A stretch of 33,130 bases of DNA, from assembly GCA_029246605.1 (NCBI GenBank), contig JAQWMV010000069.1, positions 1 through 33,130 of the forward strand, given 5' to 3'. The translations under genes were made by a program, and so were the position numbers. Positions within the stretch are counted from its first letter, which is position 1, and each line of letters starts with the position of its first letter. This DNA comes from Pseudomonadales bacterium (GTDB lineage: Bacteria > Pseudomonadota > Gammaproteobacteria > Pseudomonadales > Azotimanducaceae). Below are positions 1,504-30,406 of this stretch, one piece after another. The notes beneath the pieces were generated by a model. That model did not search any database. It had not been told where the DNA came from and saw only the letters and a list, made by a program, of their open reading frames with translations.

Positions 1504-3000
1504 ATGAGCAAAGAAATACTGCTAGTAGTTGAAGCAGTTTCCAATGAGAAAGGTGTGCCGGCTGAGATTATTTTCGAGGCGCTGGAACTTGCATTAGCAA
1601 CTGCGACTAAGAGACGTTACGAAGAAGAGGTGGAACTCAGAGTTTCTATGGACAAGGAAACGGGTGAGTACGAAACCTTTCGGCGTTGGGAAATTATGCC
1701 AGACGACGAAGAGCTGGAGTTCCCTGCAGCGCAAATGTTCCTGGCAGAGGCGAAAGAGAAAGATGCCTCATTGGAAATTGGATCGTTCTACGAGATTCCA
1801 GTGGAGTCGGTAGACTATGGAAGAATTGGCGCACAGACTTCTAAACAGGTGATTGTTCAGAAGATTCGTTAAGCTGAGAGGGCGCAGGTCGTCGATGCCT
1901 ATCGTTCTAAAGTTGGTGAATTGGTGAGTGGCCAGGTTAAAAGGGTTACCAGAGAGGCAGTTATTGTTGATCTTGGTAATAACGCGGAAGCTGTGTTGCC
2001 TCGCGAAGAGTGGATTCCACGGGAAATGTTCCGAGTGGGAGATCGTTTGCGTGCCCTGTTGAAAGAAATCAGACCGGATGCAAGAGGCCCACAACTCGCA
2101 TTGACTCGTACGTCACCTGCGATGCTAGTAAAGCTGTTTACCATAGAAGTGCCAGAGATTTCCGATGGTGTCATTGAAATACTGGGCTCCGCACGTGACC
2201 CAGGGTCGAGAGCTAAGATTGCCGTAAAAACCAATGATGGCAGAATTGATCCCGTTGGATCCTGTGTCGGTATGCGAGGCTCCCGGGTACAGGCAGTATC
2301 GAGTGAGCTCGCGGGCGAGCGGATTGACGTCGTCCCTTGGGATGACAATATCGCTCAGTTGGCGATCAACGCAATGTCACCCGCTGAAGTTGTAAAAATT
2401 GTTGTTGATGAAGAGACGCGAAGTATGGATATCGCAGTTGGCGAAGAGAATCTCGCCCAGGCTATTGGTAAGGGCGGGCAGAATGTAAAGCTAGCCAGTG
2501 AGTTGACCGGTTGGGAACTCAACATCATGACTGAAGAACAAGCCGATGAAAAACATCAGCAGGAAGCTGGAAATATCATTGAGCGCTTCATAGAACAGTT
2601 GGATGTTTCCGAGGAGGTTGCGGTTGTGTTGGTGGAGGAGAACTTCACCACACTCGAAGAAATAGCCTACGTGCCTATTGAAGAGATGATGGCAATCGAA
2701 GGGTTCGATGAAGATATCGTAGAAGAATTGCGCAACAGAGCAAAAAATGCGCTGACGACGATTGAGCTCGCGAGTGAAGAGGAGATTGGTAATCAACAAC
2801 CCGCCGATGATCTTCTGAATATGGATGGCATGGATAAGCGTCTGGCATTTCAGTTGGCGCAGATGGGTGTCATCACCATGGAAGATCTTGCAGAGCAGGC
2901 GATTGATGAAATTATGGATGTAGAAGATATGACCGAGGAGAGAGCCGGCGAACTCATCATGACTGCGCGGGCCCCCTGGTTTGAAGAAGATGAGACCTAA
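1504..3000 (+). pseudogene. nusA: Transcription termination/antitermination factor NusA, interrupted by an in-frame TAA at 1870-1872
   Basis: ORFs 1504-1872 and 1921-3000 are in the same frame and together give full NusA (NTD, S1, KH, acidic repeats); ..KQVIVQKIR*AERAQVV.. versus recalled E. coli KQVIVQKVREAERAMVV. May be a sequencing error, in which case the gene is intact. Confidence 0.9.
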
Positions 3001-12203: not shown

Positions 12204-13427
12204 TCAGCTTGGTTTCTCTTGTGTTCTCCTTGGCCACCGTCTTCGTCTTGGCTTTGTGGGTTGACGCTCGGTTGGGTTGTCTTCCTGATACTTTGTCCAC
12301 CACGCGCCGAGATTATCCAGTTTTTCACCCGCAAGTTCTCGCAGTAAAAGAAAATCGTAGGCTGCTCGAAAACGTTTATGTCCGACGAGCGCTTTTGCCT
12401 TTTTCCGATTAGGCAGACGAAATTGTAGATTCCAGATTTCTCGCATAGGGGTGGAGAATCTTCGCGGAATAGAGGTAAACAACAGTTGTTTAGCAATAAC
12501 ATTCGCTGCCGCTTCGTTACTTGCATCTGGATGGCTTGCCCCTTCTTGTTCTAACCGCCGTTTCTCATCAACAAACGGATACCAAAGTAGTGCAGCGTAA
12601 ACGAAAGCGGGCGTCACCGGTAGATCCTGTTCGATCCTCCTGTCAGTGCTGAGCAACGCCTCGCGGATCAGATTTTTGGCAGGGTACTGGTTCATGGCAC
12701 GTTTGGCATCTGGAAATAGCCAACCGAAGATGTCATATGCCAGTAATTCATCAAATACCACATTCGCTTGCCCGGACATAAACAACTTAAGTAGTTCCTC
12801 AAACAACCTGGCTGGAGAAACGTCCTGTAAAAGGTAACCAAGCTTAAACATCGGTTGTTCTGAGTTCGGATCAATAGAAAAACCGAGTTTTGTCTTAAAT
12901 CGAATAGCGCGTAACATCCTCACTGGATCTTCGCGATATCGGCTTTCGGGTTCGCCGATCAATCGGATAATCTTTGCGTCGATATCTGCCTGGCCATCAA
13001 CCAGATCGGTAACCTTATGTGTATCTGGTGAGTAGTAAAGTGCATTGATCGTAAAATCTCTGCGGAATACATCCTCTTCAAAGGAGCCGTAGTCATTGTC
13101 AGATAACAACAGGCCTCTTTCAGTTTGGTCAGTTTCCTCGATATTTTTTGACGCTCTGAAAGTTGCTACTTCTATAATATCTCGGCCGAAACGCACATGA
13201 ACGATTTTGAATCGTCTGCCGATCATTCGAGAATTTCGGAATAACTCATGAACATCTTCAGGGTGTGCATCGGTAGCCACATCGAAATCTTTTGGCGTTT
13301 GGTTGAGCAGGATGTCTCGGACACTACCGCCGACAAGATATGCCTGATAGCCGTGCTCGCTCAGTCTGCTTAGCACTTTCAGTGCGTTAATGCTTACCTG
13401 CTCTTTTTCGAGCAGTACTTCATTCAT
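12204..13427 (-). CDS. pcnB: Poly(A) polymerase I
   Basis: YLVGGSVRDILLNQTPKDFDVATDA..RDFTINALYY..EDPVRMLRAIRF; basic C-terminus. Confidence 0.95.
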   Translation of the reverse strand: MNEVLLEKEQVSINALKVLSRLSEHGYQAYLVGGSVRDILLNQTPKDFDVATDAHPEDVHELFRNSRMIGRRFKIVHVRFGRDIIEVATFRASKNIEETDQTERGLLLSDNDYGSFEEDVFRRDFTINALYYSPDTHKVTDLVDGQADIDAKIIRLIGEPESRYREDPVRMLRAIRFKTKLGFSIDPNSEQPMFKLGYLLQDVSPARLFEELLKLFMSGQANVVFDELLAYDIFGWLFPDAKRAMNQYPAKNLIREALLSTDRRIEQDLPVTPAFVYAALLWYPFVDEKRRLEQEGASHPDASNEAAANVIAKQLLFTSIPRRFSTPMREIWNLQFRLPNRKKAKALVGHKRFRAAYDFLLLRELAGEKLDNLGAWWTKYQEDNPTERQPTKPRRRRWPRRTQEKPS

Positions 13428-13466
13428 TTTGATGTTTCATGTGGCATGGCGGGTAAGTGTTGCGAA

Positions 13467-13552
13467 GGAAAAGAAGTGGGAAAAGCAATGCTTTTCCCAC
13501 TCAGTGAGCCAGCTCTTATTCTTGTTATTTATTGTTGTTATTCTTCTTTTTC
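13467..13552 (-). ncRNA. Candidate CrcZ-like Hfq/Crc-sequestering small RNA (predicted)
   Basis: Minus strand: ARN repeat AAA AAG AAG AAU AAC AAC AAU AAA U AAC AAG AAU AAG AGC (13551-13512), then 12-bp terminator stem (13501-13475) and U-rich tail; candidate -35 TTGTTG (13587-13582), 17-nt spacer, -10 TTTAAT (13564-13559). Confidence 0.5.
13468..13501 (-). terminator. Intrinsic terminator in gluQ-pcnB intergenic region
   Basis: Minus strand AGTGGGAAAAGC-ATT-GCTTTTCCCACT followed by TCTTTTCC. Confidence 0.8.
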
Positions 13553-13631
13553 GCGTCGATTAAACGACACGGCCAGCGGTACAACAACTGACGAACTCAG
13601 ATTAGCTAAAACGGGATTCATCTGCAACTGC

Positions 13632-14480
13632 TTAGTTCCCGGTAAAGATAAAAGGTGTCTGTGGCAAAAGCGATCTGTCCCACGAACGTACGGCGCTCGT
13701 TAGTAGTTGGGTCACGGAGATTGCTCGATTCTGCGTATCTTGTCCCAATGCGATGAGTGCTTGTCTTAACAAGACCAGCGGTGATGACGTGTCGATTTCT
13801 AGCGCATGAGATTGTTTGCTAAGTTTCTGACCGGAAGGATTGACCGCGAGGCGAATGTGCCCGTACGTAGGTTCGGGAAGATTCAATTGTTGAGCGATGA
13901 TGATTTGTCTCGGGGTAGATTCGAGCAAGTCTACACCTCGGATGACGTGATTTATTTTTTGGTATACATCATCGATAATGACGGCAAGTTGGTAGGCGAA
14001 TAAGCCATCTTTACGTTTGATAATGAAATCGCCAAGGTCGTTGTCAAAGGTTTGCTTCCCAAGGAACAGATCCGCAATTTCTATCGGTTTTTTATGTGTC
14101 TTGAGCCGTATTGCATAGGGTGTTTTTGTTTGTGAGAAAGTTCGCATTCGGCAAGTGCCCGCGTAGGCACTAGGGCTTCTAGGACATATACAGGGGTAGG
14201 TAACAGTGCTTAGTGTATCCAAATAGGACTGGTAGGCGTCTAATCTAGAATGTTGAAATAAGACATCCTGATCCCAATGCAGGCCACATGCATGTAGTTG
14301 TGACATGATCTGTTTAGGCGCAGATTCTAACTCTCGTGGAGGGTCGAGGTCCTCGATTCGAAGCAGCCATAAACCATCGTGATGTTTGGCGTCCAGGTAG
14401 CTCGCAAGAGCAGCAATCAGGGAACCGAAATGCAAGGGCCCGGTTGGTGATGGAGCGAAACGGCCGACGTAACTCGACAT
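13632..14480 (-). CDS. gluQ: Glutamyl-Q tRNA(Asp) synthetase
   Basis: GRFAPSPTGPLHFGSLIAALASYLDAK, truncated GluRS-like, next to dksA. Confidence 0.93.
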   Translation of the reverse strand: MSSYVGRFAPSPTGPLHFGSLIAALASYLDAKHHDGLWLLRIEDLDPPRELESAPKQIMSQLHACGLHWDQDVLFQHSRLDAYQSYLDTLSTVTYPCICPRSPSAYAGTCRMRTFSQTKTPYAIRLKTHKKPIEIADLFLGKQTFDNDLGDFIIKRKDGLFAYQLAVIIDDVYQKINHVIRGVDLLESTPRQIIIAQQLNLPEPTYGHIRLAVNPSGQKLSKQSHALEIDTSSPLVLLRQALIALGQDTQNRAISVTQLLTSAVRSWDRSLLPQTPFIFTGN

Positions 14481-14493
14481 GGCGCCTCTATAC

Positions 14494-15405
14494 TTAGCCG
14501 CGGATTTGCTTTTCCCTAATCTCTGCTAGTGTCTTACAGTCAATGCACAAAGTTGCCGTGGGCCGCGCTTCCAGACGACGAATGCCAATCTCAACACCGC
14601 AGGATTCACAGTAGCCATAGTCATCCTGTTCAATAAGCTCGATAGTGCTATCAATCTTACGGATGAGACGCCGTTCGCGGTCCCGTGTTTTAAGTTCGAG
14701 ACTGAATTCTTCTTCTTGGCTGGCACGGTCGGCAGGGTCCGGGTAGTTAGCTGCTTCTTCCTGCATGTGATTAACGGTGCGATCAACTTCTTCCATTAAC
14801 TGGTACTTCCAGACCAGCAGGATATCCCTGAAATGGTCTTTCTGTTCAGCGTTCATATACTCTTCATTTTTTCTTGGAGTATATGGCACAAAATCCTGAT
14901 CTGACTTGGCCCTTTTTTTGGCAGCAGGCTTTCGTTGGGTGGCAGGTTTTGTCTTCTTGGCTGGCTTGGTTGTTATTTTTTTTGCAGACTTCGTCGGTGC
15001 CACCTTTGTGGTTTTCTTTGGCGTTTTTGTAGGTGCCTTTGCTTTTGCCTTAGTTTTTGTTTTTTGTGCTACAGCTTTCTTCTTGGTTACTACGGGCACC
15101 TTTGTCTTTACCTTATTTTTAACTTTTACCTTTGCTTTGGCTTTTACCTTAGTTTTTGGCTTTGCCTTGGGTTTTGACTTTGCCTTAATTTTTGTTTTTG
15201 GTTTTGCCTTCACCTTCACCTTGGCTTTAAATTTGGTTGGTGTCTTGGCTTTAGCGCTAGCTACGCTTTTCTTTGCTTTCGTTTCGGTCTTTTTCTTTGC
15301 TGCAGTCTTAGTCTTCGCCTTTGCCTTCACCTTAGGGGTTTTCGACGCTTTGGTGGTTGCCTTGGCTTTACGTTTTGCTGCAGGCTTTTGTTTTTTTGCT
15401 GCCAT
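14494..15405 (-). CDS. dksA: DksA/TraR-family RNAP-binding protein with long Lys/Ala/Thr-rich N-terminal extension
   Basis: C-terminal ~130 aa: [74 protein letters not shown]-terminal ~180 aa low-complexity KAKVK/KTKxK. Confidence 0.92.
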
Positions 15406-15549
15406 AGCTTTATCCGATTGTCTGTGTCGCAAAAACTGGGTTCACAAATCGAGCCGCGAACATTACCAGATCGTCCCTAAAACGCCAAGTGAGAATTGAG
15501 TGGCATTTTAGCGATGTTATGATGCAGGTATTCTCTGAGCGGAGCAACC

Positions 15550-30197: not shown

Positions 30198-30273
30198 TGG
30201 TGGAGCCAGGCAGGATCGAACTGCCGACCTCCTGCGTGCAAGGCAGGCGCTCTCCCAGCTGAGCGATGGCCCC
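30198..30273 (-). tRNA. tRNA-Ala (TGC)
   Basis: Cloverleaf, G3:U70, TGC anticodon, encoded CCA. Confidence 0.97.
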
Positions 30274-30329
30274 AAAAATCGGGATACTTAAATACTAACC
30301 GCAATTACTAACACCAATTCAATTAAAAT

Positions 30330-30406
<77 letters not shown>

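Follow-up and report, generated by a model that had tools for sequence, protein, structure and literature searches.

A short ARN-repeat RNA upstream of pcnB, homologous to the CrcZ locus, is a candidate Hfq sponge retained without CbrAB and Crc

The small RNA CrcZ of Pseudomonas (RF01675; with CrcY and CrcX) is 426 nt long, contains six A-rich stretches and titrates Hfq with a Kd of ~7 nM (PMC6422490, PMC5501646). It takes six ARN triplets to fill the distal face of a single Hfq hexamer (PMC6422490). In the open literature the cbrA-cbrB-crcZ arrangement is confined to Pseudomonas and Azotobacter (PMC8871633, PMC6296734), and a 2022 review that describes it only in these two genera regards it as unique to the Pseudomonadaceae (PMC8871633). 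Another RNA of comparable description is sRNA99 of Acinetobacter baumannii, an AAN-motif RNA likened to CrcZ from Hfq RIL-seq (PMC12802169), and it is by description only that we set it beside the RNA considered here.

The window, a 33,130-nt stretch of DNA from a Pseudomonadales bacterium of the family Azotimanducaceae, carries on its minus strand gluQ, a candidate sRNA and pcnB in this order. The core of the candidate is AAAAAGAAGAATAACAACAATAAATAACAAGAATAAGAGC, in which eight ARN triplets, one extra T and five more ARN triplets follow one another, confirming the 13 triplets with one additional nucleotide described in an earlier reading of the sequence alone (hereinafter the sequence-only reading). 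This is the sole run of at least seven ARN triplets on either strand of the whole 33-kb window, and none of 2000 first-order Markov sequences reached its density of 13 triplets per 45 nt. In an alignment of 21 relatives (A3), the A positions of the block are largely invariant and the terminator is kept, and the window has one of the longest pure runs of its genus at eight triplets. The terminator hairpin, GAGTGGGAAAAGC-ATT-GCTTTTCCCACTT (13502-13474), is followed by the tail CTTTTCCTTC; hairpin and U-rich tail had both been recognized before, the former as 12 bp rather than the 13 bp that we count. It is the only terminator-like site between 12800 and 14400, where shuffled sequences average 1.3. 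The predicted RNA folds with -40.5 kcal/mol (z -5.2 versus shuffles), mostly owing to this terminator. Upstream of the ARN block, hairpin 1 has 7 bp with TTTAAT as its loop, and its arms differ among relatives but change together: a 5'-arm is fully complementary to the 3'-arm of its own genome but, for the most part, not to those of other genomes. Between ARN block and terminator, GCTC is invariant in the 21 relatives and the preceding G nearly so.

Table 1 Features of the gluQ-pcnB locus (window coordinates)
Feature	Position	Strand	Basis or remark
pcnB, poly(A) polymerase I	12204..13427	-	Pfam PF01743, PF12626, PF12627
Rho-independent terminator hairpin and U-rich tail	13464..13502	-	Kept in alignment A3; model R1 match
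Predicted sRNA, ~124 nt	13469..13592	-	Start estimated 7 nt past the -10; end at the U-rich tail
Linker TGGCTCACTGAG, GGCTC motif largely conserved	13500..13511	-	Alignment of 21 relatives
ARN block, 8+5 triplets, predicted Hfq distal-face binding site	13512..13551	-	Room for about two hexamers
Hairpin 1, CGTGTCG-TTTAAT-CGACGCG	13552..13571	-	Arm pairing across genomes; folds
Predicted sigma70-type promoter, TTGCAG (13627-13622) - N17 - TAATCT (13604-13599)	13599..13627	-	Starts 4 nt past the gluQ stop
gluQ, glutamyl-Q tRNA(Asp) synthetase	13632..14480	-	Pfam PF00749; synteny position

Elsewhere in the window, dksA (14494-15432) encodes a long Lys/Ala-rich, histone-H1-like N-terminal extension with the DksA domain starting at about residue 197; similar extensions are present in L031 and, shorter, in L032. 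A tRNA-Ile(GAT)/tRNA-Ala(TGC) pair, such as rRNA spacers typically contain, lies at 30198-30406 with no rRNA gene in the window, perhaps because the rRNA operon was lost in assembly.

To place the element, we compared the pcnB upstream regions of relatives in one order and of named MAGs. The same element lies upstream of pcnB in many genomes of the order, and most relatives have the order gluQ-(cbrA)-cbrB, then a sigma54 site, ARN blocks and a terminator, then pcnB. In most element-bearing genomes cbrB, often together with cbrA (~1000 aa), is found between gluQ and the RNA, and a sigma54 -24/-12 site resembling TGGCAY-N5-TGC precedes the RNA in most of these relatives. The present data put a cbrA-cbrB-crcZ-type arrangement in many families of the order.

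The Rfam CrcZ covariance model, proposed as a check by the sequence-only reading, gives no match at the gathering score in the window or its own genome (G000), nor any in 14 control genomes. At the pcnB locus its scores pass the cut-off in G058 (307 bits) and G037 (111 bits), whereas those in G045 and G057 fall short of it. A second covariance model, R1, was derived from 21 window-like RNAs with the window among the training sequences; its match to the window (13464-13545, 83.5 bits) is accordingly that of a training sequence. R1 matches the position upstream of pcnB in held-out genomes, and in G037, which belongs to another family, it has a match within the Rfam CrcZ match (L060/L149 590-671, 34.4 bits, E 0.0013). 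No R1 match was obtained in the hfq-deleted genomes L041, L091 and L092, in L044, where hfq is truncated, or in Vibrio (L034). Since both models match in G037 and the locus is shared, the window element is a homologue of the CrcZ locus, though Rfam misses it.

As the sequence-only reading had stated, cbrA and cbrB are missing from the gluQ-pcnB interval, and the rest of the window's 97%-complete genome yielded no orthologue of either. Neither gene is present at the locus in G000, G001, G003, G004 and G005, where genome-wide searches return only HK-domain matches for CbrA and paralogue-level NtrC-like matches for CbrB. These five genomes of the window's genus have lost cbrAB yet keep the RNA; their congener G006 still has gluQ-cbrA-cbrB-[TGGCACGAACCCTGC]-RNA-pcnB. 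No sigma54 site lies upstream of the window RNA, in agreement with the earlier observation, and rpoN itself is present.

Close to the end of gluQ, within a stretch that is otherwise poorly conserved among the five genomes, TTGCAGA is invariant and is followed at the same 17-nt spacing by TAATCT, TACTGT, TACTCT or TAACCT. We take this pair as the predicted vegetative promoter, from which the window RNA would be ~124 nt long. The pair falls below the threshold of a simple sigma70 scan, so that the only site called by the scan in the region is 14047-14020, inside gluQ. The promoter proposed by the sequence-only reading, TTGTTG (13587-13582) with TTTAAT (13564-13559), does exist as two hexamers 17 nt apart, but it is not conserved and its TTTAAT forms the hairpin 1 loop; we therefore reject it as a promoter, and the ~85-nt RNA predicted from it is probably the wrong size. 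In G001, a -24-like AGGCATC stands at sigma54 spacing from the TTGC of the new -35, and we speculate that the new -35 may derive from the old sigma54 -12.

Replacement of the sigma54 site is also seen elsewhere in the family. Both states occur in g22: in L184-L186 cbrB persists along with a perfect sigma54 site, TGGCACGAAAYATGC, and in the genomes with gluQ directly upstream cbrB is gone, the RNA is kept and an invariant extended -10-like sequence, CCTGCGATAGT, replaces the sigma54 site. L054, whose contig ends before the upstream gene, has CCTGCGATAGT as well. In g24, several genomes keep the RNA with an orphan cbrB and no good sigma54 site was seen; in L031 and L032 cbrB follows gluQ with no cbrA in between, and a GGGATAGT-like replacement promoter is found in several members. 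These intermediate g22 and g24 loci resemble the window in keeping the RNA, in g22 without cbrAB, and differ from it in their promoters. By eye, the receiver domain of the orphan CbrB (L031 3217-4533, L032 1707-3002) looks degenerate around the phosphorylation site. In other genera of the family (L065, L068, L072, L074, L077 and L078), cbrB stands beside pcnB across a short gap (27-160 bp) with no CrcZ-like RNA, apparently a cbrB lacking its sponge.

Hfq is present in 179 of the 207 family genomes. The gene has dropped out of the miaA-hflX interval in G002, G013, G019, G068 and G083 and is truncated in G029; L153, L155, L156, L202 and L203, from G002 and members of g8 and g14, show the deletion to be clean and so represent relatives naturally devoid of Hfq. 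The RNA was scored by a strict classifier or the covariance model, one genome cut by a contig end being set aside; the classifier missed the RNA in G004, G190 and G204, and the covariance model finds all three. By both methods, no RNA is present at pcnB in G002, a sixth genome of the window's genus with hfq cleanly deleted, in G013 and G019, members of genera g8 and g14, where Hfq has been lost, or in G029, which belongs to another genus. Conversely, all of the ~48 genomes with detectable hfq and complete flanks in the ten RNA-carrying genera have the RNA, a plain count that ignores kinship. The in-genus contrasts number two (G002 and G029), and the co-loss rests on few independent events. G088 was not counted as a further hfq loss: hflX is also missing from its assembly, and its RNA lies further upstream. 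In many other genera of the family Hfq and cbrB occur without the RNA, often with a short gap, indicating that Hfq does not require the RNA.

A genome search for hfq, crc and cbrAB, suggested by the sequence-only reading, recovered the hfq locus but neither Crc nor cbrAB. The window genome's hfq (L122 1320-1550, G000:C196) has an in-frame TAG at codon 33 and, stop included, radical changes at 3 of 58 positions that are invariant in congeners, compared with ~1% for most window genes; hfq is intact in G001, G003, G004, G005 and G006. The window strain may therefore lack a working Hfq. The essential nusA (1504-3000), however, also carries an in-frame stop, TAA at 1870-1872, at a codon invariant in five congeners. 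The nusA stop is likely an assembly or sequencing error, which makes the same plausible for hfq and weakens any pseudogene claim for this MAG. As for Crc, the only relatives seen in the window's genus and the other inspected family members are of ExoIII type and retain their catalytic motifs (GD-x-N and SDHCP) intact, as judged with a query checked against PDB (4jg3, 598 bits over 1-259). Crc with degenerate ExoIII motifs is found in other families of the order, and that of G058 is 86% identical to P. aeruginosa Crc. Titration of Hfq/Crc as in Pseudomonas, which the sequence-only reading had invoked, does not fit this genome, and the RNA would instead act on Hfq alone.

Compared with CrcZ, the window RNA has the same position directly upstream of pcnB (its cbrB neighbour lost), ARN/CA motifs that could fill the Hfq distal face and are predicted to be single-stranded between hairpins, a Rho-independent terminator, and descent from the cbrA-cbrB-crcZ-pcnB arrangement that persists in G006. 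It differs in its predicted length of ~124 nt rather than ~426 nt, in having one two-part ARN block rather than six A-rich stretches, and in lacking the CbrB-activated sigma54 promoter, CbrAB, Crc and a match to the Rfam model. Because of its promoter, length, Rfam score and the missing Crc, we do not class it as CrcZ but as a homologue of the CrcZ locus, whose mode of action is probably that of a reduced CrcZ. The earlier proposal of a minimal CrcZ-type sponge, kept after cbrAB loss under different control, is supported by the order-wide synteny, the covariance-model bridge to Rfam CrcZ, the loss of the sigma54 site with cbrAB and the joint loss of RNA and hfq. We consider it probable that the element is a free-standing ~124-nt sRNA whose ARN block binds the Hfq distal face in competition with A-rich mRNA leaders.

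Three other explanations were weighed. The element is on the gluQ strand, 3' of that gene, and its hairpin would stop gluQ transcription, so it might be only the gluQ terminator with an A-rich stretch upstream and no independent RNA. This is improbable: cbrB or cbrA-cbrB intervenes between gluQ and the RNA in most relatives, where a sigma54 site precedes the RNA, the promoter-like site between gluQ and the RNA is conserved in the genus, and a mere terminator would leave the conserved ARN phasing, the GGCTC linker and the co-loss with hfq unexplained. It also seems unlikely that the RNA is a relic that has been decaying since cbrAB and, in this strain, hfq were lost. The window has indeed lost a 5' ARN loop kept by relatives, its tail CTTTTCCTTC is less U-rich and its own hfq has a stop; yet its ARN run is among the longest of the genus, neither its hairpins nor its promoter are damaged, the RNA persists without cbrAB in four congeners whose hfq is intact, and the nusA nonsense codon suggests sequence errors.

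ARN-bearing base-pairing sRNAs are known in enterics, and the ARN block might only dock the RNA on Hfq while hairpin 1 or the GGCUC linker supplies the pairing seed. In alignment A3, hardly any change is seen across genera in GGCUCGCU, which links the ARN block to the terminator, a constancy for which a pure sponge would have no use. Outside the ARN block and terminator, however, the RNA is mostly short and structured, and the homologous CrcZ acts by titration (PMC4063720, PMC5501646), making a base-pairing role quite improbable in our view.

If the element is indeed an Hfq sponge, the vegetative-type promoter behind gluQ would transcribe the ~124-nt RNA, whose single-stranded ARN block would take up Hfq on its distal face; by competing with A-rich mRNA leaders for Hfq, the RNA would relieve Hfq-mediated repression. 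At six ARN triplets per distal face, the 13 triplets would hold about two hexamers, whereas Pseudomonas CrcZ holds several. With Crc and CbrAB gone, the RNA would buffer Hfq and be made in amounts dictated by a housekeeping promoter, and with the sigma54/CbrB input gone its level is probably basal or growth-set and not raised on poor carbon sources. Around start codons in the window, Hfq-type ARN sites do not exceed three triplets, and we name no target.

More broadly, we tentatively raise the possibility that CrcZ-type RNAs are an order-wide, Crc-free Hfq buffer older than the Pseudomonas catabolite-repression circuit, which repeatedly exchanged CbrB/sigma54 control for a housekeeping promoter and was lost only with hfq or when the whole locus was dismantled. 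If so, an inducible decoy became a standing Hfq buffer. The lineages described here, in which the sponge outlived both its switch (CbrAB) and its protein partner (Crc), offer natural tests of whether Hfq titration is the essential function of CrcZ and Crc an add-on, and G002 set against its congeners provides a contrast within one genus in which loss of hfq coincides with loss of the RNA.
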